DNA of 64,000 nt from Mesorhizobium sp. B2-8-5 (GTDB taxonomy: Bacteria > Pseudomonadota > Alphaproteobacteria > Rhizobiales > Rhizobiaceae), in the NCBI RefSeq assembly GCF_006440675.2, contig NZ_CP083951.1:3009501-3073500 (forward strand), written 5' to 3'. Made by a program: the position numbers and the translations under genes. The stretch's first letter is position 1, and every line of letters starts with the position of its first letter. Positions 9,071 to 27,769 of this stretch are shown here, piece after piece. Below the pieces are notes generated by a model, which was given only the letters and a program-made list of their open reading frames with translations, was not told where the DNA came from and did not search any database.

Positions 9071-9170
9071 AGCAATTCCAGGAAAAGTGTGAGCGGTTTT
9101 CCGTCCGGAATTGCGTAAAAACAAAGAGATAGAGCGGTTCGCTGTTTCCTTGAAACGGTGAAACGCTCTG
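9071..9170. repeat. Dispersed intergenic repeat, full two-module copy
   Basis: Module A (9072-9114) is a hairpin with arms GCAATTCC/GGAATTGC and an inner GGAAAA/TTTTCC pair. Module B (about 9116-9170) is a second hairpin with arms AGAGCG/CGCTCT. Module A recurs at 20513, 45299 and 46764. Confidence 0.8.
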
Positions 9171-9181
9171 GAAAGCGGCCC

Positions 9182-10684: not shown

Positions 10685-10687
10685 GGC

Positions 10688-11716: not shown

Positions 11717-12681
11717 GCGCTTTCCTCGCCCGCAACCGCCTCATCGTGCTTGCCTATGCCGGCATGGTCGTGCTGCTCCTGGTCACGGCGATTTTCTCGC
11801 CTGGCTTCCTCTCGGTCTCCAACATGCGCTCGACGGTGGTGCTGGCGGCCTTCGTCGGTATCGTCGCGCTCGGCCAGACCTTCGTCATCATCGGCGGCGG
11901 CATCGACCTGTCGGTGCCCTGGGTGCTGAATTCCGCGGCGATCGTCATGGCGCTGCTCTGCGGCGGGCAGGACCTGCCGCTTATCTGGGTCATGCCGCTG
12001 CTGCTTGCCGGCGGCGCCTTCATCGGGCTCATCAACGGCGTCGGCGTCGCCCAGTTCGGCGTGCCGCCGATTATCATGACATTGGCCACCAATGTCATCC
12101 TGCAGGGCCTGATCCTGGTGCTGACCGGCGGTTCGCCGACGCCGTCCGCGCCGGCGCTGATCCAGTTCCTGTCGGTCGGGCGCATCGGCGGCTTCCCGGT
12201 CATAGCGCTGATCTGGCTCGCGCTGACGCTGGTCGCCACGCTGTTGCTCTCCAAGGCCGCGTTCGGGCGTCATCTCTATGCGCTGGGAACCAGCGCGACC
12301 GTCGCCGAATTCTCCGGCGTGCCGACCGCGCGCATCACCATTCTGACCTACGTCGTCTCCGGCCTCACCGCCGCTTTCGCCGGCATGCTTTTTACCGGCT
12401 ATTCCGGCCAGGCCTATCTCGGCATGGGCGATGCCTATCTGTTCACCTCGATCGCGGCGGTCGCCATCGGTGGCGCTTCGATCCTCGGCGGCAGCGGGCA
12501 TTATCTCGGCACCGTCGCTGGCGCCATGGTGCTGACCATCCTCACCGGGCTCTTACCGGCGCTCAACCTGTCGAGCGGCGCGCTACTCGTCGTCTACGGC
12601 GCGGTGATCCTGATCACCGTGTCGATCGGCAGCGAGACCTTCGCCGGGCTCGGCGGCAGAATTCGCGGCAGAAGGGCTTGA
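11713..12681 (+). CDS. Sugar ABC transporter permease (CUT2), subunit 2
   Basis: A 322-aa permease whose ATG overlaps the preceding TGA. Family motifs are FVIIGGGIDLSVPWVLN and AVAIGGASILGGSGHYLGTVAGA. It is related to, but clearly diverged from, subunit 1. Many CUT2 systems use one permease as a homodimer; a pair like this is a frequent variant. Confidence 0.92.
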   Translation: MSAFLARNRLIVLAYAGMVVLLLVTAIFSPGFLSVSNMRSTVVLAAFVGIVALGQTFVIIGGGIDLSVPWVLNSAAIVMALLCGGQDLPLIWVMPLLLAGGAFIGLINGVGVAQFGVPPIIMTLATNVILQGLILVLTGGSPTPSAPALIQFLSVGRIGGFPVIALIWLALTLVATLLLSKAAFGRHLYALGTSATVAEFSGVPTARITILTYVVSGLTAAFAGMLFTGYSGQAYLGMGDAYLFTSIAAVAIGGASILGGSGHYLGTVAGAMVLTILTGLLPALNLSSGALLVVYGAVILITVSIGSETFAGLGGRIRGRRA

Positions 12682-12683
12682 GC

Positions 12684-13565
12684 ATGGTCGAAATCACTTG
12701 CGTCGTCGATGCCGAAGCAGAGCTGGGCGAGGGCACGCTCTGGGACCCTAAGGCCGGCGTGCTCTGGTGGATCGACATCTGGAAGAAGCTGATCCACCGC
12801 TACGACCCGTCGACCGGCAAAGACGAGGTGTTCGAGACGCCGGAATATCTCGGTTGCCTCGGCCTGCGCGAAAAAGGCGGCCTGGTGCTGACCATGACCG
12901 ACGGTTTTCATTTCTTCGACCCTGCGACTGGTGTGTTCGAAGCGATCGTCGACCCGGAAGCGCATATGCCGAAGACCCGTTTCAATGACGGCAAGCCGGA
13001 CCGGCAGGGGCGGTTCTGGTCAGGCTCGATGTTCGAGGTGCCTGGCAAGCCGATCGAATTCATCGGCGCGCTATACCGGCTCGATCCCGATCTTTCGGTG
13101 CACAAGATCATCGACGGCATCGGTTGCTCCAATGGGCTCGCCTGGAGCCCGGATTCGAAGACCATGTATTTCTCCGACAGCCATGCCGGCGCGGTGTGGG
13201 CCTATGATTTCGACCCCGCCACCGGCGACATCGAGAACCGCCGTACCTTCGTTGACATGACGGTCACCGGCGGCGTCGCCGACGGAGCTACGGTCGATGC
13301 CGAAGGCTGCTATTGGGTGACCATCCCGGTGACCAGCAAGGTCTGCCGCTACGATCCGACCGGCAAACTGATGCAGACGGTGCTCTTGCCGACCGACCTG
13401 CCGACCTGCTGCGAGTTCGGCGGCAAGGACCTCGATATCCTCTATGTCACCTCTGCCGTGCTCAAGCGTCCTGCCAGCCACTTCGTCGGCCAGAAGCATC
13501 CGGGCGGCCTGTTTGCGCTCGATGTCGGCGTCAAGGGTCTGACGCTGCCGACATTCAAGGGATAG
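12684..13565 (+). CDS. SMP-30/gluconolactonase family protein
   Basis: A 293-aa six-bladed propeller of the SMP-30 type. Typical motifs: LGEGTLWDPKAGVLWWIDI near the N-terminus (metal-binding Glu), RFNDGKPDRQGRFWSG, GIGCSNGLAWSPD, MYFSDSHAGAVWAYDFD and GVADGATVDAEGCYWV. Such enzymes hydrolyse sugar lactones to acids. It lies 2 bases after the permease. With the dehydratase at 173 it supports an oxidative route sugar, lactone, acid, 2-keto-3-deoxy acid. I start it at ATG 12684 rather than TTG 12678, which overlaps the permease stop. Confidence 0.88.
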   Translation: MVEITCVVDAEAELGEGTLWDPKAGVLWWIDIWKKLIHRYDPSTGKDEVFETPEYLGCLGLREKGGLVLTMTDGFHFFDPATGVFEAIVDPEAHMPKTRFNDGKPDRQGRFWSGSMFEVPGKPIEFIGALYRLDPDLSVHKIIDGIGCSNGLAWSPDSKTMYFSDSHAGAVWAYDFDPATGDIENRRTFVDMTVTGGVADGATVDAEGCYWVTIPVTSKVCRYDPTGKLMQTVLLPTDLPTCCEFGGKDLDILYVTSAVLKRPASHFVGQKHPGGLFALDVGVKGLTLPTFKG

Positions 13566-13830
13566 CGCCGGCAATCTAGGCGCGACATCGCGGGCAGCGC
13601 CTCGACCTTGCGCGCCGAGATGGTCCCATCGCCATAAGCGGGTTGACATTCACAGCGCGGGGTGCGTGCCAGCCACCAGAGGAATTTTCCGCGATTTCGG
13701 TGTGCAGCTGGAAAACCGTTGGCGGTCATTCGCGGAATCTCCTTGAGGCTGGCGCGCGGATTGATCAGTTTGTCCCCAAGCAGGACCACTTGCCAGGCGG
13801 ATAGTCGCGGCGGACAGGGAGAGAACAGCA

Positions 13831-14871
13831 ATGCGCACCAAAACCAGCATCCGCGTCGTCGGCTGCCACGCCGAGGGCGAGATCGGCGATGTCATCGTGG
13901 GCGGCGTGCTGCCGCCTGCCGGCCGCACGATGATGGAGAAGATGATCACGATGGAACGCGATCACGACCATATCAGGCGCATGCTGATCTGCGAGCCGCG
14001 CGGCAGCGTTGCCCGGCATGTCAATCTCCTGGTGCCCTCGACGCGCGAGGATTGCGCCGCGGGCGCCATCATCATGGAGCCGACCGAATATCCGCCGATG
14101 TCCGGCTCCAACACGATCTGCGTCGCCACGGTGTTGCTCGAGACCGGCATGGTGCCGATGCAGGAGCCCGAGACGCGCTTCAAGCTGGATATGCCCGGCG
14201 GCGTCATCGAGGTGCGCGCCGAATGCAGCGACGGCAAATGCCTGTCGATCACGCTGCGCAATGCCCCCGCCTTCGCCGAGCGCCTCGATGCCAATATCGA
14301 GGTGGAAGGGCTCGGCACGATCAAGGTCGATATTGCCTATGGCGGCATGTTCTACGCGATTGTCGATGCGCCCGCGCTCGGCTTCTCGGTCACCCCCGAC
14401 GAGGCCCGCGAATTGGCCGTGGCCGGCGAGAAGGTTCGCCGCGCGGCGCGCGAGCAGCTCGATGTCGTGCATCCGCAGTTCGACAATGTGCGCGGTGTGT
14501 CGATCGTGCAGTTCGCCATGCCGTTCCAGGGGCCAGGCAACGTCACGCGCAACACCTGCATCGTCTCGCCAGGACGCTCGGACCGCAGCCCGACAGGAAC
14601 CGGCACCTCGGCCCGCATGGCCGTGCTGCAGGCGCGAGGCCAGATGAAGGCCGGCGAGGTGCTGATCCATGAATCGATCATCGGCTCGCGCTTCACCGGC
14701 AAGATCCTCGAACTTACCGAAGTCGGAGGGCGCAAGGCGATCGTGCCGCAGATAACCGGCAGAGCCTGGATCACAGGAGAGCACAACTACTATCTCGATC
14801 CGACGGATCCCTATCCGCAAGGCTATGTGCTGTCGGATACCTGGGGCACCTCGACTTCGGTGACGCAATAG
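13831..14871 (+). CDS. Proline racemase-fold protein with Ser/Thr in place of the catalytic Cys pair
   Basis: A 346-aa protein of the proline racemase / 4-hydroxyproline epimerase / trans-3-hydroxyproline dehydratase superfamily (RVVGCHAEGEIGDVIVGG, GGMFYAIVDA, DRSPTGTGTSARMA). The first catalytic site, normally Met-Cys-Gly-His, reads MSGSN with Ser91. The second, normally DxxPCGxGT, has Asp251 and Thr255. The pair is thus Ser/Thr, so two-Cys racemisation is not expected. Dehydration or another activity on a hydroxy acid is possible. It is 265 bases after the lactonase, with GGGAGAG before the ATG, and may have its own promoter. Confidence 0.8.
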   Translation: MRTKTSIRVVGCHAEGEIGDVIVGGVLPPAGRTMMEKMITMERDHDHIRRMLICEPRGSVARHVNLLVPSTREDCAAGAIIMEPTEYPPMSGSNTICVATVLLETGMVPMQEPETRFKLDMPGGVIEVRAECSDGKCLSITLRNAPAFAERLDANIEVEGLGTIKVDIAYGGMFYAIVDAPALGFSVTPDEARELAVAGEKVRRAAREQLDVVHPQFDNVRGVSIVQFAMPFQGPGNVTRNTCIVSPGRSDRSPTGTGTSARMAVLQARGQMKAGEVLIHESIIGSRFTGKILELTEVGGRKAIVPQITGRAWITGEHNYYLDPTDPYPQGYVLSDTWGTSTSVTQ

Positions 14872-15088: not shown

Positions 15089-16081
15089 ATGACCGCCAAG
15101 CCGGAAATCCTGGAGATGAGGCCCAAGATCACCGTTGTCGGGGTCGGGGGCGCCGGCGGCAACGCCGTCAACAACATGATCGCCGAAGGGCTGCAGGGCG
15201 TCGAGTTCGTCGTCGCCAACACCGATGCCCAGGCGCTCACCATGTCGAAGTCGTCGCGGCTGATCCAACTGGGTGCGCATGTGACCGAGGGCCTGGGCGC
15301 CGGGTCCTTGCCCCAGGTCGGGAGCGCTGCCGCGGAAGAATCCATCGACGAGATCATGGATCATCTTGCGGGAACGCATATGTGCTTCATCACCGCCGGC
15401 ATGGGCGGCGGCACGGGGACGGGTGCGGCGCCCGTGATCGCGCGTGCCGCGCGCGATGCCGGCATCCTGACGGTGGCCGTCGTCACCAAGCCTTTCGTGT
15501 TCGAAGGCAAGCGCAGGACGCAGGCGGCCGAGGAAGGCATCGAACGGCTTCGCGAGAGCGCCGATACCGTGATCGTCATCCCGAACCAGAACCTCTTCAG
15601 GGTCGCCGACGCCAGGACCACGTTCGCCGACGCCTTCGCCATGGCGGACCGCGTTCTCTACGCGGGTGTCGGCTGCATCACCGATCTCATCGTCAAGGAA
15701 GGCCTGATCAATCTCGATTTCGCCGACGTGAAGTCGGTGATGCGGGACATGGGCCGGGCGATGATGGGAACCGGCGAAGCCTCCGGGGAGGGGCGCGCCA
15801 AGATCGCGGCCGAGGCGGCGATCGCCAATCCGCTCCTCGATGAAGCTTCCATGTCCGGCGCCAGGGGGCTGCTCGTGTCGATCTGCGGCGGCATGGACAT
15901 GACGCTGTTCGAGGTCGACGAAGCCGCGACGCGGATACGCGAAGAGGTCGACGCCGATGCCGACATCATCGTCGGCGCCATCTTCGACCAGGCATTGGCG
16001 GGAAAGTTCCGCGTGTCCGTCGTCGCGACGGGTCTGCGCAAGAGCGCCGACATCGCGCAATTCGAGCAGAGGATCGCCTGA
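15089..16081 (+). CDS. ftsZ: FtsZ paralogue lacking the C-terminal linker and tail
   Basis: A 330-aa tubulin-like GTPase. The nucleotide-binding start is [15 protein letters not shown] (about 12-26), and the tubulin signature [13 protein letters not shown] lies near 104-116. The conserved FtsZ core continues through [16 protein letters not shown] and [11 protein letters not shown]. It ends at about residue 330, without the Pro/Gln-rich linker and conserved C-terminal peptide that bind FtsA and other partners. It resembles the short FtsZ2 known from rhizobia. It is a single gene between unrelated catabolic loci, so it is probably not the essential division ftsZ of the dcw cluster. Confidence 0.88.
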
Positions 16082-16183: not shown

Positions 16184-16198
16184 TGTCCAGTTTGGACA
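16184..16198. promoter_or_regulatory. Operator-like dyad GTCCA-N3-TGGAC, copy 1
   Basis: TGTCCA-GTT-TGGACA, perfect 6-bp arms, about 100 bases before the YciI-like gene that opens the hydroxyquinol operon. Matching dyads occur at 18617-18631 and 27755-27769. Confidence 0.7.
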
Positions 16199-16299: not shown

Positions 16300-16587
16300 T
16301 TGCTCTTTGCCGTCCACTGTCTCGACTATGCCGATGCGCTTGCTCGCCGGCTTGCCAATTACGATGCCCACAAGGCCTATCTTGCCGCCGGATCGGTCGC
16401 GACCGTAATCTCCGGGCCGCTGGTCGCTGCGGACGGTGCGACCATGATCGGCTCGCTCTTCGTGTTTTCCGCGGACAGCATCGAAGATGTGAAGGCGTTC
16501 AACGCCACCGACCCGTTCAATGCCGCCAATGTCTGGCAAAGCGTCAGCATCAATCCGTTCCTGCTGCGTGTCGATAATCGCGGCTGA
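16300..16587 (+). CDS. YciI-like protein of the hydroxyquinol operon
   Basis: A 95-aa ferredoxin-like YciI-family protein: LLFAVHCLDYADALARR, then the conserved His in NYDAHKAYL, then SGPLVAADGATMIGSLFVFSADS. I start it at TTG 16300, because GGGAGG (16288-16293) lies 6 bases upstream and the family fold begins there; upstream in-frame codons run through the operator region. The maleylacetate reductase gene follows after 14 bases. Known YciI relatives include a dehydrochlorinase acting on a chlorinated hydroxyquinol (TftG), so a role on a trihydroxybenzene or its quinone is plausible but unproven. Confidence 0.7.
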   Translation: MLFAVHCLDYADALARRLANYDAHKAYLAAGSVATVISGPLVAADGATMIGSLFVFSADSIEDVKAFNATDPFNAANVWQSVSINPFLLRVDNRG

Positions 16588-16601: not shown

Positions 16602-17663
16602 ATGAAAAGCTTCGTCTATAATGGCCAGCCGGCGCGCGTCGTCTTCGGATCTGGCACCATTGCAAGGCTGCCGGAGGAGATCGACCGTCTGGGGCTGAAG
16701 CGTGTGCTCGTGTTGGCGACGCCGCCGCAGGAGACCGAAGCCCGGCGGCTTGCCGGTACGCTCGGCGGCACCGCGTCCGGTGTCTATGCCGGGGCGACGA
16801 TGCATACGCCCGTGTCCGTGACCGAGGACGCGCTGCGGGTCGTGGCGGAACTCGAGGCCGACGGGCTGGTCGCGGTCGGCGGCGGCTCCACGACGGGCCT
16901 CGCCAAGGCGATCGCGTTGCGCACCGACCTGCCGCAGATCGTAATGCCGACGACCTATGCCGGCTCGGAAATGACACCCATCCTCGGCGAGACGAAGGAT
17001 GGCGTGAAGGTCACCCAATCGAGCCCGCGCGTGCTGCCGGAAGTGGTCATCTACGACGTCGACCTGACGATGACGCTTCCCGCCGCGTTGTCGGGGACAA
17101 GCGGCATGAACGCCATCGCCCATGCGGTCGAGGCGCTCTACGCGAGGGAAAGCAACCCGGTTATAAACCTGATGGCCGCCGAGGCCATCGGCGCATTGGC
17201 GAGCGCCTTGCCGGTCATCGCCGAGAAGCCGCATGACCGCGATGCACGCTCCAAGGCGCTTTACGGCGCCTGGCTCTGCGGCATCTGCCTCGGCTCGGTC
17301 GGCATGGCGCTGCACCACAAACTTTGCCACACGCTGGGCGGCAGTTTCGATCTGCCGCATGCGGAGACCCATACGATCGTGCTGCCGCATGCGCTGGCCT
17401 ATAACGCCCCCGCCATTCCGGCGGTCATGGAAACCCTGCGGGCCGTGCTGAAGACGAACGACCCGGCGACGGCTCTCTACGATCTTGCGGGCAGGATCGG
17501 CGCAAAGCGCGCCCTGTCTGAGATAGGCATGCCGTCCGACGGGATCGACACCGCGACGGACCGCGCGCTGGCCAATCCCTACTGGAACCCGCGGGCGCTG
17601 GAGCGGGAACCGATCCGGGCTCTTATCGCGCGCGCCTATGCCGGCGAGCCGCCGCAGGCCTGA
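16602..17663 (+). CDS. Maleylacetate reductase
   Basis: A 353-aa iron-type alcohol dehydrogenase-fold protein. It has YNGQPARVVFGSGT at the N-terminus, the dinucleotide motif GGGSTTGLAKAIA (about 93-105), PTTYAGSEMTPI and the His-rich segment HHKLCHTLGGSFDLPHAETH, all characteristic of maleylacetate reductases. It reduces maleylacetate, the ring-cleavage product of hydroxyquinol, to 3-oxoadipate with NAD(P)H. It lies between the YciI-like gene (14 bases) and the dioxygenase (31 bases), as expected for a lower hydroxyquinol pathway. Confidence 0.9.
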   Translation: MKSFVYNGQPARVVFGSGTIARLPEEIDRLGLKRVLVLATPPQETEARRLAGTLGGTASGVYAGATMHTPVSVTEDALRVVAELEADGLVAVGGGSTTGLAKAIALRTDLPQIVMPTTYAGSEMTPILGETKDGVKVTQSSPRVLPEVVIYDVDLTMTLPAALSGTSGMNAIAHAVEALYARESNPVINLMAAEAIGALASALPVIAEKPHDRDARSKALYGAWLCGICLGSVGMALHHKLCHTLGGSFDLPHAETHTIVLPHALAYNAPAIPAVMETLRAVLKTNDPATALYDLAGRIGAKRALSEIGMPSDGIDTATDRALANPYWNPRALEREPIRALIARAYAGEPPQA

Positions 17664-17694: not shown

Positions 17695-18603
17695 ATGACA
17701 GGCACCGCAGACGCCGCTCGACCGAAATATCCCTATTTCGAGGAAGAGACCTCGGTCGACGTGGTCAACGCGCGCATGGGGCCGGATGTCGACCCGCGCC
17801 TGCGGCAGGTGATGGGCGTGCTGGTGAAGCACCTGCACGCCGCCATCAAGGAGATCGAGCCGACGCATGAGGAGTGGCTGCAAGGCATCAAGTTTCTCAC
17901 CGATGTCGGCAAGATGTGCTCCGACTGGCGGCAGGAATTCATCCTTCTTTCCGATACGCTTGGCGTTTCGATGCTTGTCGACGCGATCAATCACCGGCGT
18001 CCGAACGGCGCCACGGAAAACACCATCCTCGGACCGTTCTATGTGCCGGAGGCCCCGCGCTACGAGCACGGCGCTAACATCTGCCTCGACGGCAAGGGCG
18101 AGCCGATGGTGGTGCGCGGTCGCGTGCTCGACACGCAAGGCAAGCCGATCGCCGGCGCGCTGATCGATGTCTGGCAGACCAATGACGACGGCTTCTACGA
18201 TGTCCAGCAGAAGGACATCCAGCCCGACTGGAATCTGCGCGGGGTCTTCACCGCCGACAAGAAGGGCGAATACTGGTATCGTTCGGTCAAGCCGCGCTAC
18301 TATCCCATCCCCGACGACGGACCGGTCGGAAAGATGCTCGCCGCGCTCGGGCGTCATCCAAACCGGGCGGCGCATGTGCACTACATCGTCAGCGCGCCGG
18401 GTTACGATCCCGTCATCACCCACATCTTCGCGCCCGATTGCCGCTACCTCGCCGAGGACGCCGTCTTCGGCGTGAAGGATTCGCTGATCGCGGATTTCAC
18501 CAAAGTCACCAACCCGGAAAAGGCGCGCGAGCTCGGTTTCGACGCTCCGTTCTGGTCCGTCGAATGGGATTTCGTCATGGCTCCCAAGACCGCCGGAACT
18601 TGA
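17695..18603 (+). CDS. Intradiol ring-cleavage dioxygenase, probable hydroxyquinol 1,2-dioxygenase
   Basis: A 302-aa enzyme with an N-terminal helical dimerisation region (about 1-100) and a beta-sandwich catalytic domain. The Fe(III) ligands read Tyr168 (GFYDVQ), Tyr203 (RYYPIP), His227 and His229 (AAHVHYI). The motif ENTILGPFYVPEAPRYEHGANI is typical of hydroxyquinol and chlorocatechol enzymes. Co-location with maleylacetate reductase favours hydroxyquinol, cleaved to maleylacetate, over catechol; no muconate cycloisomerase is present. Start ATG 17695 has GGAGGAG at 17680-17686. Confidence 0.9.
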   Translation: MTGTADAARPKYPYFEEETSVDVVNARMGPDVDPRLRQVMGVLVKHLHAAIKEIEPTHEEWLQGIKFLTDVGKMCSDWRQEFILLSDTLGVSMLVDAINHRRPNGATENTILGPFYVPEAPRYEHGANICLDGKGEPMVVRGRVLDTQGKPIAGALIDVWQTNDDGFYDVQQKDIQPDWNLRGVFTADKKGEYWYRSVKPRYYPIPDDGPVGKMLAALGRHPNRAAHVHYIVSAPGYDPVITHIFAPDCRYLAEDAVFGVKDSLIADFTKVTNPEKARELGFDAPFWSVEWDFVMAPKTAGT

Positions 18604-18616
18604 GGCTGGTCAGTTT

Positions 18617-18631
18617 CGTCCAAATTGGACA
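18617..18631. promoter_or_regulatory. Operator-like dyad GTCCA-N3-TGGAC, copy 2
   Basis: CGTCCA-AAT-TGGACA, in the 88-base gap before the HTH-solute-binding fusion gene. It suggests that this gene is controlled by the regulator of the hydroxyquinol and importer operons, possibly itself. Confidence 0.7.
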
Positions 18632-18691: not shown

Positions 18692-20383
18692 ATGAACGAT
18701 CACGAGTTCCTGCGCGTTTATGATTTCGTGGATCGCCTGCGCAGACCTTTCCTCGGCGTGACGGATGTCGAGGACGAGGCCGCCTGGCGCATCATCCACT
18801 ACCTCATGCGCTCGGAGCTCGAGGGCTATCCGGTGACGATCAGCAAGCTCGCGCTGGTCTCCAATCTCCCTCACGGCACCGCGATCCGGCGCATCCAGGG
18901 CATGATCGACGGCGGATTGATCGAAAGGCGGGCGGCTTCCGAAACGGCCAAGCGCTTCACGCTTCACCCGACGGCACGCCTCTCGAACCTCGCCATCAAT
19001 TATGCGGCGGAGACAAAAGCCCTGATCGCCGAGATCGTCGGCGGCCGTAACAATGAGGAGCATGAGGCCGACTATTATTTCGGCGCGCCGCAGCGCGGCA
19101 GTCCGATCATCCCGCCGATCAACCTTTTGACCAACAGGGTCACGAAAGGCGTCGAGCTGCAGTTCCTGCTGAACGACGACAATTACTTCGCCGCCATGCG
19201 CAACACGTGGTCGGACTTCCGCAACAATCTGGCGAGCGCCAAGAGCTTCAAGCTGGTGCACCAGAACGATCTTTACCGGGAGGGCCTGGCGAACGGCGCG
19301 CGCACCATCTCGGCCTACGACATGATCGCGATCGACATGCCTTGGCTCGGAGAATTCGCGAGCAAGGGACTTGTCCTGCCGATCGGCGAGACGATCCGCG
19401 AATCCGGCATCAACCCGATGGATTTCCATCCGTCGATCTGGTCGACGACGACCTGGCAGCGCGTCGAATACGGTGTGCCGATCTATTGCACGATAGAGGT
19501 GCTGGCCTGCCGGTCGGATCTCTTCGAAAGCGAGGGGCTGTCGCTGCCGCGCACCTTCGACGACGTCATCAGCGCCGGGCGCGCATTCCACAATCCGGCC
19601 GCGGAACGCTACGGCATCGCCTGGAACGCGGCGCACCGGCCGCTGGCATCGAGCTTCATGTTCTTCCTCGGCTGCTGCGGCCAGAGCGTGCTGTCGATCC
19701 GCCGCACGCCGACGGGCTATTCCACCGAAAACCTCGATGCGCAGCATATGCGGCCGCAGATCGACAGCGAAGCCGGCCTGCTGGCGCTCGACTACATGCA
19801 TCGCATGCTGGAGATCGCCCAGCCCGGCGCGCTCGAGGCGCATTGGGACGATTCCTGCGCGGTCTTCCTGCGCGGCCAGAGCGCGATGGGCTATGTCTGG
19901 ACGATGCGCGCCGCCCAGTTCGAGGCCGAAGTCCGCTCCGCCGTCAAGCGCCGCGTGGCCTACGTTCCGCAGCCTTCAGGACCGGGCGGCACCAACACCT
20001 CGCCGATCGGCGGGTTCCTGTTGTGCATCCCTTCCAACATCGATCCGAAGCGTCTGCCGCTGGCGGCCGAAGCGCTGGCCTGGATGGCATCGCGCGAGGC
20101 GATGAAGGAGCATGTGAAGAACGGTTTTCCCGTCGCGCCGCGTTTCTCGGTCAGCGCGGATCCGGAGGCGATCGGCAGCTCGCAGCTCGTGCGCTTCGTC
20201 GGCAGCCTCGCCAACCGCAATCTGCTGCGCAACTGGCAGCGCCCGCCGGTGCCGTTCTACACCGGCATGGAGCGCATCATCGGCGAGGAGGTTCACGACG
20301 CGCTTTCCGGCCGCAAATCCGACCGAGTGGCCCTGAAAGACGCCCAGGACCGCATCGAGCGGATCGTCGACCGCGTCGGCTGA
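18692..20383 (+). CDS. Winged-helix domain fused to a MalE-class (SBP_bac_1-like) solute-binding domain; probable regulator
   Basis: A 563-aa protein with no signal peptide. Residues about 45-115 form a MarR-like winged helix (YPVTISKLALVSNLPHGTAIR, then GGLIERR and KRFTLHPTARL). From about 130 to the C-terminus it reads as a family 1 extracellular solute-binding protein: KGVELQFLLND, IAIDMPWLGEFASKGLVLPI, YGVPIYCTIEVLACRSDLF, GQSAMGYVWTM and IGGFLLCIPSN. The DNA-binding head and missing signal peptide imply a cytoplasmic one-component sensor. Usual HTH-binding-protein fusions (LacI type) use the type I fold; the MalE-class fold is unusual. It lies after the hydroxyquinol genes, and GTCCA-N3-TGGAC dyads flank its presumed targets. 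Confidence 0.8.
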   Translation: MNDHEFLRVYDFVDRLRRPFLGVTDVEDEAAWRIIHYLMRSELEGYPVTISKLALVSNLPHGTAIRRIQGMIDGGLIERRAASETAKRFTLHPTARLSNLAINYAAETKALIAEIVGGRNNEEHEADYYFGAPQRGSPIIPPINLLTNRVTKGVELQFLLNDDNYFAAMRNTWSDFRNNLASAKSFKLVHQNDLYREGLANGARTISAYDMIAIDMPWLGEFASKGLVLPIGETIRESGINPMDFHPSIWSTTTWQRVEYGVPIYCTIEVLACRSDLFESEGLSLPRTFDDVISAGRAFHNPAAERYGIAWNAAHRPLASSFMFFLGCCGQSVLSIRRTPTGYSTENLDAQHMRPQIDSEAGLLALDYMHRMLEIAQPGALEAHWDDSCAVFLRGQSAMGYVWTMRAAQFEAEVRSAVKRRVAYVPQPSGPGGTNTSPIGGFLLCIPSNIDPKRLPLAAEALAWMASREAMKEHVKNGFPVAPRFSVSADPEAIGSSQLVRFVGSLANRNLLRNWQRPPVPFYTGMERIIGEEVHDALSGRKSDRVALKDAQDRIERIVDRVG

Positions 20384-20555: not shown

Positions 20556-21362
20556 TTAGGCGATCGCTCGTATCGAGCCGCCATCCACGCCCCAGACGGA
20601 GGAGGTGACGAAGGAGGCGAGATCGGAGGCCAGGAACACGATGACGTTAGCCACTTCCTCCGGCTTGCCGAGGCGGCCGAGCGGCAGCTGGCGCAGCGAC
20701 ATCTCGTGCTCGACGGCCTTCTGCGGCTCCATATTGTGGAACTTGCCCATGGTTTCGGCAAAGCCGCCGGGCTGGGTCCAGAACGGCGTCCAGATCGGGC
20801 CGGGAGCCACGGCGTTGATGCGGATGTTGTTGGCGCCTTCGGTGCGCGCCAGACCCTTGGTCAGGGCGAGCACCGCCGCCTTGGACGCCGAGTAGTCGAT
20901 CGGAACGCCTTCTGGCTGACGCGCAAGGTCCGAGCCGTTGTTGACGATCGCGCCGTGTCCCTGCTTGCGCATGACCGGCAGGACGACGCGCGTCGTGCGG
21001 ACATAGCTCATGAAGTTGAGCGAGAAGGTCTTGTCCCACTCGGCGTCGGTCAGTTGGTCGAAGGTCCGCACCGCGCCGGCGCCGACATTGTTGACGAGGA
21101 CGTCGACCGTGCCGCCGAAATGGGCGATGGCGGCCGTCACTTTCTTCTCGATATCATCTGCCGAGGAAAGGTCGGCCTTGAACGTCGCGGCCGTGCCGCC
21201 GGCAGCCGTGACCGCGGCCGACGTCTCGGCGAGGGCCGCTTCGTCGATGTCGAAAAGCGCCACGCGGCTTGCCTCGCGGCCGAACGCTATCGCCGTTTCG
21301 CGGCCGATGCCCTTCGCCGCCCCGGTGATCAGCACCACCTTGCCCTTGAGATTGGTTTCCAT
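20556..21362 (-). CDS. SDR family dehydrogenase (last gene of the importer operon)
   Basis: A 268-aa classical SDR: cofactor motif TGAAKGIG (about 14-21), FDIDEAAL after strand 2 (an acidic residue favouring NAD), NNVGAG, catalytic Ser in NGSD, YSASKAA (Tyr and Lys) and a C-terminal GVDGGSIRAIA. ATG 21362 follows GGGAGGATCAAA. It oxidises or reduces a hydroxyl on the imported substrate or an intermediate. It lies 11 bases after the TIM-barrel gene and ends the operon that starts at 27671. Confidence 0.85.
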   Translation of the reverse strand: METNLKGKVVLITGAAKGIGRETAIAFGREASRVALFDIDEAALAETSAAVTAAGGTAATFKADLSSADDIEKKVTAAIAHFGGTVDVLVNNVGAGAVRTFDQLTDAEWDKTFSLNFMSYVRTTRVVLPVMRKQGHGAIVNNGSDLARQPEGVPIDYSASKAAVLALTKGLARTEGANNIRINAVAPGPIWTPFWTQPGGFAETMGKFHNMEPQKAVEHEMSLRQLPLGRLGKPEEVANVIVFLASDLASFVTSSVWGVDGGSIRAIA

Positions 21363-21373
21363 TTTGATCCTCC

Positions 21374-22231
21374 CTATCTTGCGGCGAATTGCGCCATGGT
21401 TGTTTCGAACGAGCGTCGCGCCGCCTCTTCGAGCGGCAGCACGCGATGCCTCTTTGAAATCACTTCGACCGAGTAGAAGCCGTCGAAGCCGGTCTTGCGG
21501 ATCGCGTCGATGAAGGCGGGGGGATTGAGCACGCCCTCGCCACAGAGCCGGCGTTCGTAGATCGTGTCTTCCCAAAGCGTGCCGACGACCTTCTCATCCG
21601 CGTCGTCGAGCTCGACCGAGACGACATATTGTTTTGGCACGGCGGCGACGGCTTCGTAGGGGATGCCGCCGCGGCCGATATGCCAGATGTCGAGCAGCAG
21701 GCCACCATTGGCGTTTGCCGCGCCTTCGACGATGGCGCGCGCGGTTTCCAGGGTGCGCACGTTGGAGAACGGCATCACCTCCACCGCGATCCTAGTTCCG
21801 TAACGGGCGGCGTCGTCGCAGATCGCGGCGAAGCTGTCCGTGACCTGCGCAAGGTCGATCGTGTCGGCATCGAATTCCGGCGCGATCTTGACGTCGCGGG
21901 CGCCGAGCGCCTCCGCCGCCTCGAAGAGCTCGCGCCGAACCTTGTCCGATGCGGCGCGCAGGGCGCCCGACGCGAACCAGTGGGTGATGAACTCCAGCTC
22001 GACATGCGGCATGCCATTGGCCTCGAGGATGCGGCGCATCTCCTTCAGGCCGATCTTCTCGCGCGTCGCCTGCAGATCGGCATGGATCAGGCCGACGCCC
22101 TTGTATCCGGCCCTGGCCGCCGCCTCGACACGCCGGGCGAACGGAAAGGGACTGATCTCGTTCGGCGCGAACGGATAGACGTCGCCGGAGATGGTCCAGT
22201 AGGCGGCGACGAGTTCAATGGGTTTGCTCAT
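21374..22231 (-). CDS. Sugar phosphate isomerase/epimerase-like TIM-barrel protein
   Basis: A 285-aa protein of the AP-endonuclease-2-like TIM-barrel family, which includes inosose dehydratase, IolI-type isomerases and 3-dehydroshikimate dehydratase. Visible metal-ligand candidates are Glu in AVEVMPF, Asp and His in LLLDIWHIGRGG, and Glu in YSVEVISK. Of the two adjacent ATGs I prefer 22231, 6 bases after AGGAG; 22234 is only 3 away. It sits between two SDR genes in an operon sharing an operator with hydroxyquinol genes. That makes dehydration of a cyclic keto-polyol an attractive role, but this is inference. Confidence 0.75.
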   Translation of the reverse strand: MSKPIELVAAYWTISGDVYPFAPNEISPFPFARRVEAAARAGYKGVGLIHADLQATREKIGLKEMRRILEANGMPHVELEFITHWFASGALRAASDKVRRELFEAAEALGARDVKIAPEFDADTIDLAQVTDSFAAICDDAARYGTRIAVEVMPFSNVRTLETARAIVEGAANANGGLLLDIWHIGRGGIPYEAVAAVPKQYVVSVELDDADEKVVGTLWEDTIYERRLCGEGVLNPPAFIDAIRKTGFDGFYSVEVISKRHRVLPLEEAARRSFETTMAQFAAR

Positions 22232-22241
22232 CATGTTCTCC

Positions 22242-23039
22242 TCAGACCGAGGCGCCTTCCGACCCGGTGCGGAAATCGAAGCTGGTCGTCAGGCCGCCGT
22301 CGGCGATGATCTCGGCGCCATTGAGCGCAGTGGAGGCGTCAGAAAGCAGGAAGAGGCCGGCGCGGGCGACCTCGGCCGGATCAAGGATGCGGCCGGCCGG
22401 CTGGCGGTTGGCGCGCGCGGCGAGGAAGCGGTCCGGATCGTTGGCGGATTTCATGTGCCGCTCGAAGAGGCCGGCGAGCATCGGCCCGGGGCTCAGCACG
22501 TTCGCGCGTATGCCCTGGCGCGCATGGTCCATCGCAACTGTGCGGGTAAGCTGGCGGACCGCGCCCTTCGAGGCGGCGTAGACGGCAAGCTGCTGCTCGG
22601 CGAAGGTCGCGTCGATGCTGGCGACCGCCACGATCGGGCCGCCGCCGCGCGCGGTCATCAACGGCAGCATGGCGCGAAAGGCGAGCGCCGTGCCGATGAA
22701 ATTGACCGACATGGTCCTTTCCATCGCCGCCTTGTCGAATTCGAGGATGGTGCCGACATTCAGCATGGCCGCCGACGTCACGAGGCCAAGCGTTCCAGGA
22801 TTTTCCCTGGTGATCATGTCCGTGATGCCGGCCCAGGTCGCCTCGTCGGTAACGTCGCCCCGGACATGCGAATAGCGTTCGCTTGCAAGACTCTCGGGCG
22901 CCGGCGCGAGATCGACGCCGATCGTGCGCACGCCGCTGTCGGTCAGCAGCCGGGCAATGTTGGTACCAAGACCAGAAGCCGTTCCGGAGACCACGACAAG
23001 GTCCGGCAAGGCGTTGCTAAAGACTGGCTCCGTGGCCAT
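22242..23039 (-). CDS. SDR family oxidoreductase
   Basis: A 265-aa SDR with a modified cofactor loop (VSGTASGLGTNIARLL), Asp after strand 2 (GVDLAPA, favouring NAD), AVASIDA with the catalytic Ser, YAASKGA with Tyr and Lys, and a C-terminal IADGGLTTSFD. Start 23039 follows GAGGAATACCCC. It lies just after the binding-protein gene and 10 bases before the TIM-barrel gene. It is probably the first oxidation step on the imported polyol; the direction is unproven. Confidence 0.85.
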   Translation of the reverse strand: MATEPVFSNALPDLVVVSGTASGLGTNIARLLTDSGVRTIGVDLAPAPESLASERYSHVRGDVTDEATWAGITDMITRENPGTLGLVTSAAMLNVGTILEFDKAAMERTMSVNFIGTALAFRAMLPLMTARGGGPIVAVASIDATFAEQQLAVYAASKGAVRQLTRTVAMDHARQGIRANVLSPGPMLAGLFERHMKSANDPDRFLAARANRQPAGRILDPAEVARAGLFLLSDASTALNGAEIIADGGLTTSFDFRTGSEGASV

Positions 23040-23112: not shown

Positions 23113-24090
23113 TCAGCGGCCGAGCGCGGCGTTGCAGTCGGCGACGTTGGCCTTGGTGATGATCTCGTGCGGCAGGAAGATCTGCTTCTCCACCTTCTTG
23201 CCGTCGAGGAGATCGGCGACAGCCTGCGCGGCATATTTGCCGTCGTCGATCGGCGACTGCAGGACGGTGGCGTATTGCGTACCGTCCTTGATCTGGTTGA
23301 CGCCCTCGATCGAGCAGTTGGAGCCGACCAGGACCAGGCTTGCCGGATCGATGCCGGCGCGCTTGGCGGCGACGATCACGCCTGACATCATGTTGTCGGC
23401 CTGCGCATAGACGCCCTTCACGCTTGAGCCGAGTTGGGTGAAGAGGGCGGCGGCGGCATCCGTCGCCTTGGTCTGGTCCCAGTTGCCGTTCTGCTTGCCG
23501 GCCACCTGAATGCCGCTTGCCTTCTTGCCCAGGACATCCTCGAAGCCCTGCGAGCGCTGGATCTGAGGCGGTGTTCCGGGAACGCCCTCGACGATGAAGA
23601 CCTTGCCGTCGCTGCCGAGCTTCTTGTCGGAGAAACCCTTGATCATGGCTTCGCCGGCGGACTCGCCGTTGCCGATGTCCGACGGGCCGGTGAAGACGTC
23701 CCAGAATTGCGAATATTTCTCGTCCGGCCGCGAGTTGGTGATCACCAGCGGGATGCCGGCCTGCTTGATCTTGCGTAGCGACGGCACGATGGCGCTCGCA
23801 TCCGCGGGCCAAAGCACGATCGCGTCCGGCTTCTGGGCGATTGCCTGGTCGACCTGCGAGGCCTGCTCGGCGGCGTCGTAGTTGTTGATCTTGACCTCGA
23901 GATCGATGCCCGCGGCGGCCGCGACCTCCTTGAAGGCGCGCTGGTGGAGCGCGCAATATTCGCATTCCTCGGTGACCGTCAGCAGGATCACCTTCGCGCC
24001 CTTGGCCGCGGCGAAGGCCATTCCCGGCGCCATCAGCCCTCCGACGACCGTGGTCGCCAGCAAAAGTTTGGTGAGTTTTGCGAAGTTCAT
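23113..24090 (-). CDS. Ribose-type sugar ABC transporter substrate-binding protein of the hydroxyquinol-linked operon
   Basis: A 325-aa periplasmic protein. The signal peptide is MNFAKLTKLLLATTVVGGLM, with cleavage near AFAAA, followed by a type I fold (EVKINNYDAAEQASQVDQAI, KPDAIVLWPADASAI, VYAQADNMMSGVIVAAKRAG). A CEYC segment near the start of the mature protein is unusual. Start 24090 follows GGGAGGAG; upstream in-frame codons have no ribosome site. It delivers ligand to the permeases at 24180 and 25168. The ligand is probably sugar-like or cyclitol-like, by family. Confidence 0.9.
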   Translation of the reverse strand: MNFAKLTKLLLATTVVGGLMAPGMAFAAAKGAKVILLTVTEECEYCALHQRAFKEVAAAAGIDLEVKINNYDAAEQASQVDQAIAQKPDAIVLWPADASAIVPSLRKIKQAGIPLVITNSRPDEKYSQFWDVFTGPSDIGNGESAGEAMIKGFSDKKLGSDGKVFIVEGVPGTPPQIQRSQGFEDVLGKKASGIQVAGKQNGNWDQTKATDAAAALFTQLGSSVKGVYAQADNMMSGVIVAAKRAGIDPASLVLVGSNCSIEGVNQIKDGTQYATVLQSPIDDGKYAAQAVADLLDGKKVEKQIFLPHEIITKANVADCNAALGR

Positions 24091-24179: not shown

Positions 24180-25163
24180 CTAGGCGGAATGCACAGCCCG
24201 CGACATTGCGAGCCGTTCGCTCATCCATGCGCCCAACTGACCGTCGAGCAGCACGATCCCCATCAGCACGAGGCCGTTGGCGAAGAGAATCCCCGTCGCC
24301 CCCATGCCGATCAGACTCAGTCCATTGTTCATCACCGTCAGGATCAGCGATCCGAGCAGGACATGCGCGGGTGTGCCGGAGCCGCCGCTGAGGGCGACGC
24401 CGCCGACGATCGCGGCCGAGACGGCCTGCAGCATCAGCGTGCTGCCGGTGGTCGCCGCGGCGCTGGCGAGGCTCATCGACAGCAGGCTTCCCGCGAGCGC
24501 GGCCGTGGCGGCGGAAAGCACGAAGACGATCACCAGCGAGCGGCCGACCCTGGCGCCGCTCGCCGCCGCGACCTGGGGCTTGCTGCCGACGACGCGGATG
24601 TCGCGTCCCATCAGCGTGTAGTGCATGAACAGACCGACGAGCAGGAAAGCGGCAAGCGTCACGACGCTGCGCCAGGAAAGGACGGTCAGCAGCGGATCGT
24701 CCAGGGCCATGCCGAGGTCGAAATTGTCGGTGCTGATGACCTTGCCGCCGGCGAGCCAGAAGGCGAAGCCGGAGAGCGCCATCATCGAGCCGACCGAGAC
24801 AACGAGCGACGACACCTTGAAGCGGCTGATCACGAAGGCATTGACCAAGCCGACAAGCACGGCGAACGCCAGCGCGGCGACCACGCCATGGACGAGATTG
24901 CCGGCGCCGATGACGAGCGTGATCAGGCCGCCCACGGCGACCATGGAGCCGACGCTCAGATCGAACTCGCCGGCAATCATCGTCAACGACAGACCGAGCG
25001 CGACCATGCCGAGCAGTGCGAAGGACTGCATGAGCGCATAGAGATTGCGGCCGCTGATAAAAGCCGGATTCCAGATCGCGAAGGTGGCGACGAGAGCGGC
25101 GAGAAGGACAAGGCGCAGCAGCGTCGCGCCGGAAATCATCTTCGACTTGCGGATCGCGGCCAT
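24180..25163 (-). CDS. Sugar ABC transporter permease (CUT2)
   Basis: A 327-aa permease with the family motifs LTMIAGEFDLSVGSMVAVGG and AAIVGGVALSGGSGTPAHVLLGS. AGGAGG precedes the ATG, inside the end of the previous gene. It pairs with the permease at 25168 and is served by the ATPase at 26169. Confidence 0.92.
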   Translation of the reverse strand: MAAIRKSKMISGATLLRLVLLAALVATFAIWNPAFISGRNLYALMQSFALLGMVALGLSLTMIAGEFDLSVGSMVAVGGLITLVIGAGNLVHGVVAALAFAVLVGLVNAFVISRFKVSSLVVSVGSMMALSGFAFWLAGGKVISTDNFDLGMALDDPLLTVLSWRSVVTLAAFLLVGLFMHYTLMGRDIRVVGSKPQVAAASGARVGRSLVIVFVLSAATAALAGSLLSMSLASAAATTGSTLMLQAVSAAIVGGVALSGGSGTPAHVLLGSLILTVMNNGLSLIGMGATGILFANGLVLMGIVLLDGQLGAWMSERLAMSRAVHSA

Positions 25164-25167
25164 GGTC

Positions 25168-26172
25168 TTACCTCCTGAAGCCGAGCGCCAGCGCGCCGAG
25201 GATCACCGAGCCGATCACCACCAGGCCCTTGACGATGAGCTGGATCTCCAGCGACAGGCCCTTGAGCAAAAGGATGTTGGAGATCATCGCCAGGAACACG
25301 GCGCCGATCGCCGCGTCGAGAATCCGGCCCTGGCCGCCCTTGATCGCCACGCCACCGACGAGCACGGCGGCGATCGCGTCGAAATCCAGCCCCGCGCCGA
25401 GCTTGAGGTTGCCCTGCGCCGCCTGCGAGCCATAGAGCGCGCCGGCAAAGGCCGCAGCCATGGCGGCGAACATATAGGCAAGCACAAGCGTGCGGCCGAC
25501 GCGCAGGCCTGTGAAGCTGGCGGCCTTCGGGTTCAGCCCGATCAGGCGAAGCTCCCGGCCGAAGCGGGTCCGCTCGACGATGAAGCTCAGCACGATCGCA
25601 GCCAACAGGAAGAGCAGGATCTGATTGGGCAGGCCGAGGGTCCGTCCGACCCCGAGCCAGCTCGCGTCTCCCTGGCCCACGACCGTCAGGCCGCCGGAAT
25701 AGAACGAGCCGGCGCCGGTGATGATCGAAGCCATCGCTATCGTGGTGATGATCGGATTGGTGCGGAACAGGCCGACGGCGATACCCTGGGCCAACCCGAA
25801 CAGCCCGCCGATCAGGACCACCAGGATCACGCTCGCGAACAGGCCGAAATGCAGGAAGGATGCAAAAAGAATGGTGGAGACGGCGGCCGTCGCGCCCATC
25901 GACAACATGAAGAGATTGCCGGAAAGCGTGATAAGCGCCATGCCGACCGCGGCGATGCCGACCGCGGACGTGGAGTACATGATCGCCGACACATTGGCGC
26001 CCGAGGAAAAGCCGGGAATGGTGAATGTTGCCCACAGGGCGAACAGCACCGTGGCTGCCCACACCGCGGTGGATTGGATGCGCTCCGGCCGCATCAGGCT
26101 GGCGCCGAGCGCCGCCGCGTCGAATCCGACCAAGGCCCTGCCTCCGCTCCTTATATTGCCGTTGATGCTCAT
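25168..26172 (-). CDS. Sugar ABC transporter permease (CUT2)
   Basis: A 334-aa permease with MALITLSGNLFMLSMGATAAV in place of the more usual GGIDLS-type motif, and LVGGVAIKGGQGRILDAAIGA near the C-terminus. Its ATG overlaps the ATPase stop (ATGA), indicating translational coupling. The changed substrate-channel motif sets it apart from its partner at 24180. Confidence 0.9.
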   Translation of the reverse strand: MSINGNIRSGGRALVGFDAAALGASLMRPERIQSTAVWAATVLFALWATFTIPGFSSGANVSAIMYSTSAVGIAAVGMALITLSGNLFMLSMGATAAVSTILFASFLHFGLFASVILVVLIGGLFGLAQGIAVGLFRTNPIITTIAMASIITGAGSFYSGGLTVVGQGDASWLGVGRTLGLPNQILLFLLAAIVLSFIVERTRFGRELRLIGLNPKAASFTGLRVGRTLVLAYMFAAMAAAFAGALYGSQAAQGNLKLGAGLDFDAIAAVLVGGVAIKGGQGRILDAAIGAVFLAMISNILLLKGLSLEIQLIVKGLVVIGSVILGALALGFRR

Positions 26173-27671
26173 GCCGCCCTCCCGATGTCCGGACCGCGAA
26201 CGACATCGCCCAGGATGGAATCCATGGTCGTCTCCTCGACCGGCAGGTCGCGGACGATCTCGCCGCGGAAGACTGTGATCACGCGCTGCGACAGTTCCCG
26301 GATCTCTTCCAGGTCCGTCGAAAAGAACAGGACGACCAACCCCTCGCGGGCGAGCGCCTGGATTTCGCGGTAGATCTCGGTGCGGGCGCCGACATCGACG
26401 CCGCGTGTCGGCTCGTTGAGCACCAGGATCCTGGGCGAGAGCGCGACCGACTTGGCGATCGCCACTTTCTGCTGGTTGCCACCCGAAAGCGTCGACGCCG
26501 CAGCCGGCAGCCGGCGGGCGTCGATCTGGAACCGGCGGGCAAGCTCGCCCGCCTGCCTGCGCGCATCGGCGAGCGTCAGGACACCGAAGCGGTTGAGGCG
26601 GTCGAGTATCGCCGCTGTGAGGTTGACCTCGATGGGGGCTCCGAGGAAGAGGCTCTTGCCGGCGCGGTCCTCCGAGACATAGGCGATACCGGCACGGCTC
26701 GCCGCCGCAATCGAGGTGACCTCGACCGGAGAGCCGCCGACCCTGATCGTGCCGGCGTAGTGTCGCTCCAGGCCTGCCAGCGTTTCGACCAGCGCATTGG
26801 CGCCGGAGCCCAACTGACCGATGACGCCGACGATCTCGCCGGCGCGGAAGGCAAGATCGACGGGGCGGTATTTTCCCGCGACGCCAAGTCCCGCCAGCTC
26901 GATCACCGTCGCCGCCTCGGGCCCGGCCCGGTCGCGCGTTGCATGCGCCGAGGTTACCTCGCGACCGATCATCTCGGTGACGAGCTCGTCATTGGTCCAT
27001 TGCGCGGTCGGTTTCGTCAGGATGCGCTGTCCGTTCCGGAACACGGTCGTGCGATCGGTGAGGGCGAAGATCTCCGGCAGGCGATGGCTGATATAGACGA
27101 CGGCCGTTCCCTTGGCGCGCAGCCAGCGCACCGTGGCGAAGACCCGCTGGATCTCGGCGTCGGAAAGGCTCGCGGTCGGTTCGTCGAGGATGAGCACGCG
27201 CGCTCCGCGTATCACGGCGCGGCAGATTTCGAGGAGCTGCTGCTCGGCAATCGACAGGTTTCCGGCCTCGAGGTTGAGCGGCACATCCGACAGCCCGAGC
27301 TGATCCAGGGTCTCGCGTGCACGCGCCCTGTAGCGGGCGCGGATATAAAGCTGGGAGATATCGGGGTCGCCCAGAAGCACATTGTCCAGCACGGACAGAT
27401 GCGGAATGATCGACAGTTCCTGATAGACGACGGAAACAAGTTTCGGATTGGTGAGCTCACCGGGCCGCAGCAAATGCCCGCCGACGCGGACCTCGCCTTC
27501 GTCCGCAGGCATGAGGCCGGCGATGATACGCACCAACGTGCTCTTGCCGGCGCCGTTCTCGCCGCAAAGAGCATGGATCTCGCCGGCGTGAAGATCGAAG
27601 TCGATGCCCTTCAGCGCATGGACCCCGCCGAACGACTTGCGCAAGTTCGTGACCGTGAGAACGGCTTGCAT
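26169..27671 (-). CDS. Sugar ABC transporter ATP-binding protein (two NBDs)
   Basis: A 500-aa CUT2 ATPase and first gene of the operon. NBD1 has GENGAGKST, LSIAEQQLLEICRA and VLILDEPTASL. NBD2 has a degenerate Walker A (GQLGSGANALV), LSGGNQQKVAIAKS and LVLNEPTRGVD. It is preceded by about 220 bases carrying the GTCCA-N3-TGGAC dyad (27755-27769), so the operon (ATPase, two permeases, binding protein, SDR, TIM barrel, SDR) appears co-regulated with the hydroxyquinol genes. Confidence 0.92.
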   Translation of the reverse strand: MQAVLTVTNLRKSFGGVHALKGIDFDLHAGEIHALCGENGAGKSTLVRIIAGLMPADEGEVRVGGHLLRPGELTNPKLVSVVYQELSIIPHLSVLDNVLLGDPDISQLYIRARYRARARETLDQLGLSDVPLNLEAGNLSIAEQQLLEICRAVIRGARVLILDEPTASLSDAEIQRVFATVRWLRAKGTAVVYISHRLPEIFALTDRTTVFRNGQRILTKPTAQWTNDELVTEMIGREVTSAHATRDRAGPEAATVIELAGLGVAGKYRPVDLAFRAGEIVGVIGQLGSGANALVETLAGLERHYAGTIRVGGSPVEVTSIAAASRAGIAYVSEDRAGKSLFLGAPIEVNLTAAILDRLNRFGVLTLADARRQAGELARRFQIDARRLPAAASTLSGGNQQKVAIAKSVALSPRILVLNEPTRGVDVGARTEIYREIQALAREGLVVLFFSTDLEEIRELSQRVITVFRGEIVRDLPVEETTMDSILGDVVRGPDIGRAA

Positions 27672-27754: not shown

Positions 27755-27769
27755 GGTCCATATTGGACT
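27755..27769. promoter_or_regulatory. Operator-like dyad GTCCA-N3-TGGAC, copy 3
   Basis: GGTCCA-TAT-TGGACT, 84 bases upstream of the ATPase start. The five-base arms match copies 1 and 2 exactly, while the three-base centres differ (GTT, AAT, TAT), as expected for a dimer-binding site. Confidence 0.7.

Follow-up and report, generated by a model that had tools for sequence, protein, structure and literature searches.

The window analysed here is a 64,000-nucleotide stretch of Mesorhizobium sp. B2-8-5 (contig NZ_CP083951.1, positions 3,009,501 to 3,073,500), and the gene in question (18692..20383, plus strand) encodes a 563-amino-acid protein in which a winged helix-turn-helix (wHTH) domain precedes a solute-binding protein (SBP) domain. 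The product is very probably a cytoplasmic, ligand-responsive and autoregulated transcription factor belonging to a widespread, apparently unnamed wHTH-SBP family. The features computed were its architecture, the predicted fold, the missing signal peptide (by a crude measure), the positions and conservation of a palindromic dyad, and the separation of fused from exported forms on one branch of a tree.

The domain layout was derived from the open reading frame (ORF) translation, Pfam and AlphaFold2 models. The winged-helix domain spans residues 3-116 (18698..19039), with a presumed recognition helix at residues 61-73 and a wing at 77-93. Its closest fold and profile matches are in the MarR/SlyA family, including a profile-to-PDB match to the SlyA-like structure 4mnu (E 1e-4), and the predicted structure has the MarR-type winged-helix fold; the MarR_2 Pfam score was 24.4 bits, under the curated cut-off of 27. 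The C-terminal domain, a MalE-type (class II) SBP_bac_1 domain at residues 150-563 (19139..20380; N-terminal limit approximate), matched the Pfam models SBP_bac_1 and SBP_bac_8 and, by fold, class II binding proteins. Signal peptides were called by a hydropathy scan of the first 45 residues, a crude measure by which the highest window was 0.20, with no signal-peptide-like stretch. Values of 1.8 or above were reached in one of 116 fused relatives (median 1.07), as against 89 of 107 exported SBP-only relatives (median 2.05). By these predictions a helix-turn-helix and a class II solute-binding domain share a single chain without a signal peptide, and the protein is probably not exported but cytoplasmic. 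An earlier note on this DNA had claimed the lack of a signal peptide, the MarR-like winged helix and a full-length family 1 solute-binding domain following it. All three claims were supported, and of the checks that it had proposed, structure prediction of the full protein returned the winged helix and the domain search returned SBP_bac_1, with MarR_2 falling below its cut-off.

Read differently, the protein could be a transcription factor whose solute-binding domain has lost ligand binding and now only mediates dimerisation or protein contacts, such as docking to the importer or to a different protein. The adjoining importer uses its own, unrelated type I binding protein (Peripla_BP_4, Pfam E 3.2e-52; 23113..24090, minus strand), so that nothing obliges the regulator's domain to recognise the importer's ligand, which gives this alternative some room; by the same token, two unrelated binding folds may here read related compounds. 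A domain that no longer binds a ligand is considered improbable, and a ligand-responsive regulator is preferred.

The candidate operator is the dyad GTCCA-N3-TGGAC, of which exact copies occur three times in the window and six times in the whole 6.46-Mb genome. The window copies are GTCCAGTTTGGAC (16185..16197), about 100 bp upstream of a yciI-like gene whose start at 16300 is assumed; GTCCAAATTGGAC (18618..18630), a candidate autoregulatory operator beginning 74 bp upstream of the regulator ATG; and GTCCATATTGGAC (27756..27768), about 85 bp upstream of the start of the importer ATPase. They thus precede a YciI-maleylacetate reductase-dioxygenase operon, the regulator gene and the importer operon, respectively. 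The relaxed pattern RTCCA-N3-TGGAY is found at 10 places in the genome. Each of the three exact copies outside the window falls within a stop-free frame (1953, 1002 and 1137 bases), but this does not separate them from those in the window, which also sit in such frames in this GC-rich DNA (1350, 1893 and 606 bases, on either strand). Mismatched dyads were not enriched in the window (25 vs 22.6 expected), and only exact sites were therefore used. In the most similar locus (L005, 98% identity) the dyads are kept at the YciI and regulator promoters, and a third lies on a separate contig of that genome with flanks resembling those of the window's importer site; in L006 and L007 (88-89% identity) they are kept at all three promoters. 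The claim of the earlier note that three promoters share a dyad was thereby borne out, and it extends further, since the core TCCA-N3-TGGA was found in many relatives at 33-55% identity.

The core had been spotted in several relatives before its frequency was ranked against that of other palindromes. Within 250 bp upstream, it was the commonest of 3328 palindrome classes, present at 22 of 68 loci dereplicated at 95%, and it was present at 9 of 30 loci dereplicated at 70% and 5 of 19 at 60%; mononucleotide shuffles gave means of 0.2, 0.1 and 0.06 for the three sets, with a largest value of 2. The carriers were near copies of the window and relatives of less than 38% identity, with none among the 28 loci of 38-60% identity. 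Within 1400 bp, a length available in full at 61 of the 68 loci, the counts rose to 29 of 68, 12 of 30 and 7 of 19, compared with averages of 1.1, 0.48 and 0.30 for 311 palindrome classes matched in composition, a match that matters because GC-rich classes reach similar raw counts. Before these counts one locus (L080, a 438-amino-acid frame matching only residues 168-559) was removed; L021 and L105 both stand for the gene of the window itself, and dereplication at 95% merged loci that held two identifiers for a short and a long flank. The distances are approximate for some distant relatives, whose start codons could be off by as much as about 100 bp, and the table of neighbourhoods rests on crude ORF calls.

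That the 38-60% group lacks the core in the first 250 bp was no longer counted against a shared operator once longer loci had revealed sites farther upstream. In twelve Rhizobiaceae genomes extended in this way (L131-L142, of which only the 1.5-kb versions entered the counts above), six loci (L131, L132, L134, L138, L140 and L142) carry the core 1.06-1.24 kb upstream of the regulator, ahead of a dehydrogenase-like gene that precedes it. This gene, which resembles a 6-phosphogluconate/hydroxyisobutyrate-dehydrogenase-like protein of L009, lies before the regulator in each of these six loci and in four of the remaining six. Among relatives of less than 38% identity, an exact core is present at least once in 12 of the 14 long loci (L057-L070): eight within 300 bp upstream of the regulator, two (L058, L061) before a gene of the importer binding-protein family that heads a run of genes leading to the regulator, and two (L064, L069) before the next gene, which in L064 encodes a xylose-isomerase-like TIM barrel. 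As a control, other ORFs of the long loci were checked, and the core stood upstream in 13 of 318 cases. Six of these belong to the importer binding-protein family and two to the TIM-barrel family; the others precede YciI and the importer ATPase in L007, an M24-family gene in L060 and two crude ORFs on the opposite strand. The spacer and flanks of the 29 sites in the low-identity group are mostly A/T, roughly AWATCCAWWWTGGATAWW, and a relative of 33% identity outside the class (L104, genome G895) has ATATCCATTTTGGATAA at -144. Pairs of cores lie 21 bp apart in L036, L044 and L095 and 85 bp apart in L044, L089 and L095, a recurrence that is only suggestive of cooperative dimers on one helix face.

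A part of the loci speaks against a single operator for the whole family: no exact core was found in any of the 16 loci L008-L017 and L051-L056, in six of the twelve loci L131-L142, or in L067 and L068. No different operator stood out when the upstream and intergenic palindromes of the core-less loci were searched, several of the top classes in that search stemming from near-identical Rhodobacterales loci. The dyads might also be bound by another regulator while the 563-residue protein controls something else, since they are tied to the protein by position only, and an IclR-type regulator adjoins the hydroxyquinol-type genes in L009, with the same gene family represented in L056. Yet the core recurs before the family's own gene or operon amid neighbours that are otherwise different, namely a cluster of importer, E1, lipoyl and aldehyde dehydrogenase genes (L063), the dehydrogenase-regulator pair (the six Rhizobiaceae loci above) and a YciI-importer arrangement (L007), which makes control by a second protein a quite remote prospect.

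We infer DNA binding, dimerisation, ligand binding and a direction of control along the following lines. The MarR-like winged helix, as a dimer, would bind the palindrome RTCCA-N3-TGGAY, a specificity of the wHTH-SBP family suggested by conservation of the site. The class II MalE-type domain, kin of exported sugar-binding proteins, would close around a small molecule taken up by the cell or met in catabolism. On the analogy of SgrR and LacI, this movement of the cleft around a cytoplasmic ligand could shift the two winged helices of the dimer relative to the 11-base core, altering affinity for DNA or its geometry. The regulon in the window would comprise the regulator, an importer operon that continues with a short-chain dehydrogenase (SDR), a TIM barrel and a second SDR, and the YciI-maleylacetate reductase-dioxygenase operon; the dyad at the regulator's own promoter makes autoregulation likely. 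Derepression by the ligand is somewhat favoured over activation, again by analogy.

The family is both widespread and easily overlooked. A protein search over 7999 scored candidates returned 622 relatives at E 0.001; 120 of these were listed, and the names that some of them bear are for the most part extracellular solute-binding protein or multiple sugar transport system substrate-binding protein, one fragment being named DNA-binding MarR family regulator. In whole-genome searches that counted the window's own genome, the protein turned up in 32 of the 397 genomes covered for the order (E 1e-60) and in 41 of 394 for the family (1e-50); with the distant member L063 as query, matches at 1e-50 came from 6 of 398 genomes of the phylum, a single one of which belongs to another class. 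Relatives that align over the full length, at 33-55% identity, are spread over the order and reach Rhodobacterales and, in one case, a different class. Among the loci with a name are Mesorhizobium, Rhizobium lusitanum, Lichenifustis, Thioclava and Pseudooceanicola, and the order-wide search listed eight genomes of the same genus, all without a match. The window's own genome has a single copy of the fusion, its other six matches covering only parts of residues 175-560. Aligned members matched SBP_bac_1 in 57 of 57 cases, SBP_bac_8 in 56 and MarR_2 in 30 (E 0.01 or better, the curated cut-off not being checked per sequence), and two positions are invariant across 24 divergent N-termini: R66, which falls in the presumed recognition helix, and G75, which closely follows that helix. 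A tree of 75 SBP domains (54 fused, 21 exported) needs one change to separate the two forms, with a support of 100/100; it is unrooted, contains three long-branch rows (two fused) and rests on sampling chosen by the analyst. This split fits a single fusion event. In L067 (7995-11216) both forms lie side by side in one genome: a fused protein is followed about 130 bp downstream by an SBP-only protein of 448 residues whose start resembles a signal peptide, and then by a BPD_transp_1 permease. Finally, a role as an importer component, one that works in the cytoplasm or leaves it by an uncommon route and has an incidental N-terminal domain, would match the names just given but is hardly credible in view of the missing signal-peptide-like stretch, an N-terminal domain that aligns in most of the distant members found, the conserved candidate operators and an adjoining importer with its own type I binding protein.

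The genes around the regulator bear on what it may control. Upstream on the plus strand are the YciI-like protein (16300..16587, TTG start assumed; Pfam YCII E 5.6e-12), a member of the Fe-ADH family (16602..17663; Pfam) presumed from its neighbour to be a maleylacetate reductase, and an intradiol dioxygenase (17695..18603; Pfam Dioxygenase_C/N) that is presumably a hydroxyquinol 1,2-dioxygenase, scoring under the NCBIfam cut-offs for catechol dioxygenases. Downstream, on the minus strand and by Pfam, are the importer ATPase with two ABC_tran stretches (26169..27671), the BPD_transp_2 permeases B (25168..26172) and A (24180..25163), the type I binding protein described above, an SDR (22242..23039; a longer ORF to 23234 was scanned), a xylose-isomerase-like TIM barrel (AP_endonuc_2; 21374..22234) and a second SDR (20556..21362; a longer ORF to 21575 was scanned). 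CUT1-type permeases (BPD_transp_1) do not stand beside the regulator, the adjoining importer using BPD_transp_2. A sigma-70 promoter scan found none. Directly upstream of the YciI dyad, at 15089-16081 on the plus strand, lies a gene for a 330-residue FtsZ-like protein, short for FtsZ and recognised by eye from the tubulin signature GGGTGTG. A second ribose-type importer operon, with SMP-30-like and proline-racemase-like genes also named by eye (9158-14871, plus strand), was without an exact dyad in the exact-match scan of the window.

Genes resembling those for maleylacetate reductase and the dioxygenase adjoin the regulator in the window, in L005 and in L009, and by gene family (F21, F29) in L056. 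What speaks against hydroxyquinol cleavage as the core of the regulon is that the L006/L007 locus has no match to either gene, although the regulator, YciI, the importer operon and all three dyads are kept there; the dioxygenase homologues of these genomes lie elsewhere (61-63% at best), on contigs without exact dyads. As both genes are also missing from the locus in L011-L017, hydroxyquinol was rejected as a universal target, and import appears to be the steadier target, with hydroxyquinol cleavage an occasional partner. The earlier note had argued for a regulatory role from the position between a hydroxyquinol operon and an importer; the role is probably correct, while the case for hydroxyquinol as the main object of control is weakened. 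In L063 a Peripla_BP_4 binding protein is divergent from the regulator, pairing type I and class II folds as in the window, and an SDR, an M24-family protein, two E1-type subunits, a lipoyl protein and an aldehyde dehydrogenase lie downstream. At 5536-6315 of L009 a gene for an IclR-type regulator (Pfam) adjoins the maleylacetate-reductase-like gene, its counterpart in L056 being family F27; these IclR-type proteins would be competing regulators for the hydroxyquinol genes of those two loci. The mid-identity relatives L009, L011, L014 and L055 have recurring neighbours, assigned by similarity to L009: a Gfo/Idh oxidoreductase, a zinc alcohol dehydrogenase, a PRISE-type reductase and YciI occur there in differing combinations.

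On paper, one oxidation and two dehydrations would turn a deoxyinositol into a compound with the formula of hydroxyquinol, and two SDRs, the IolE-like barrel and YciI might conceivably carry out these steps. A bolder proposal, rather unlikely as a whole, is that an undescribed family was born once by joining a MarR-like winged helix to a relative of exported sugar-binding proteins, kept one operator language (RTCCA-N3-TGGAY) across Pseudomonadota while switching catabolic regulons, and may here govern a so far undescribed pathway that turns an imported cyclitol-like compound, by oxidation and dehydration (two SDRs, an inositol-dehydratase-like TIM barrel and YciI), into hydroxyquinol, followed by ring cleavage.

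Databases mask this probable regulator family by labels like extracellular solute-binding protein. The most useful result of the analysis is the operator that many members share, from which their regulons become predictable by sequence. The sensor is akin to well-studied sugar-binding proteins, so that ligands can be screened by standard binding assays, and the family would provide a case of a transport-type binding protein turned intracellular sensor, with possible use as a biosensor scaffold.

Several known systems combine DNA binding with a binding-protein fold. LacI/GalR regulators, which join the LacI helix-turn-helix to a type I periplasmic binding protein, likewise pair a DNA-binding head with a sugar-binding-protein sensor and would work alike, but neither Pfam model matched the 563-residue protein at E 1. 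Proteins of the MarR/SlyA family share the winged-helix fold and a palindromic candidate operator; they bind ligands inside a subunit of roughly 140 residues and are mostly repressors, whereas the protein described here adds a 410-residue solute-binding domain. Exported CUT1-type sugar-binding proteins (5iai, Arad_9887; P0121) have an SBP_bac_1-type domain of the same fold, and P0121 begins with a signal-peptide-like stretch and lacks a winged helix. In LysR-type regulators the companion of the DNA-binding domain is mainly periplasmic-binding-protein-like II (PMC5882156), as in the present protein. The LysR effector domain has about 200 residues in place of a full sugar-binding type of about 410, and the Pfam models for the LysR helix-turn-helix and substrate domain gave no match at E 1. 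The closest parallel in layout is the SgrR family: according to PMC13060122, DsvR, the Vibrio homologue (V. cholerae) of E. coli SgrR, is a helix-turn-helix joined to SBP_bac_5, and SgrR controls itself negatively, controls SgrS and is tied to sugar metabolism. The N-terminal helix-turn-helix, the class II domain and self-control, which is likely for the present protein, are shared, whereas SgrR has SBP_bac_5 and its own helix-turn-helix model in place of SBP_bac_1 and is tied in E. coli to the small RNA SgrS, where the wHTH-SBP family is tied to importer and catabolic operons. The SgrR and SBP_bac_5 models matched neither the protein (E 1) nor 57 relatives (E 0.01; 12 families listed), and no LysR or SgrR structure is named among the fold matches listed, which excludes nothing. 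Solute-binding Pfam domains are also described, in PMC9602780, as sensor domains of transcriptional regulators. The premise of the earlier note, that regulators combining a helix-turn-helix with a binding protein use the type I fold, is not supported as it was put, given the class II domains of LysR (PMC5882156) and DsvR (PMC13060122). Its case for novelty was too strong in that SgrR and LysR already use the fold class. No regulator joining a helix-turn-helix to SBP_bac_1 was described in the titles and abstracts listed by searches of the open-licence literature. The wHTH-SBP family is thus apparently unnamed, and the kind of fusion that it represents is one already known.
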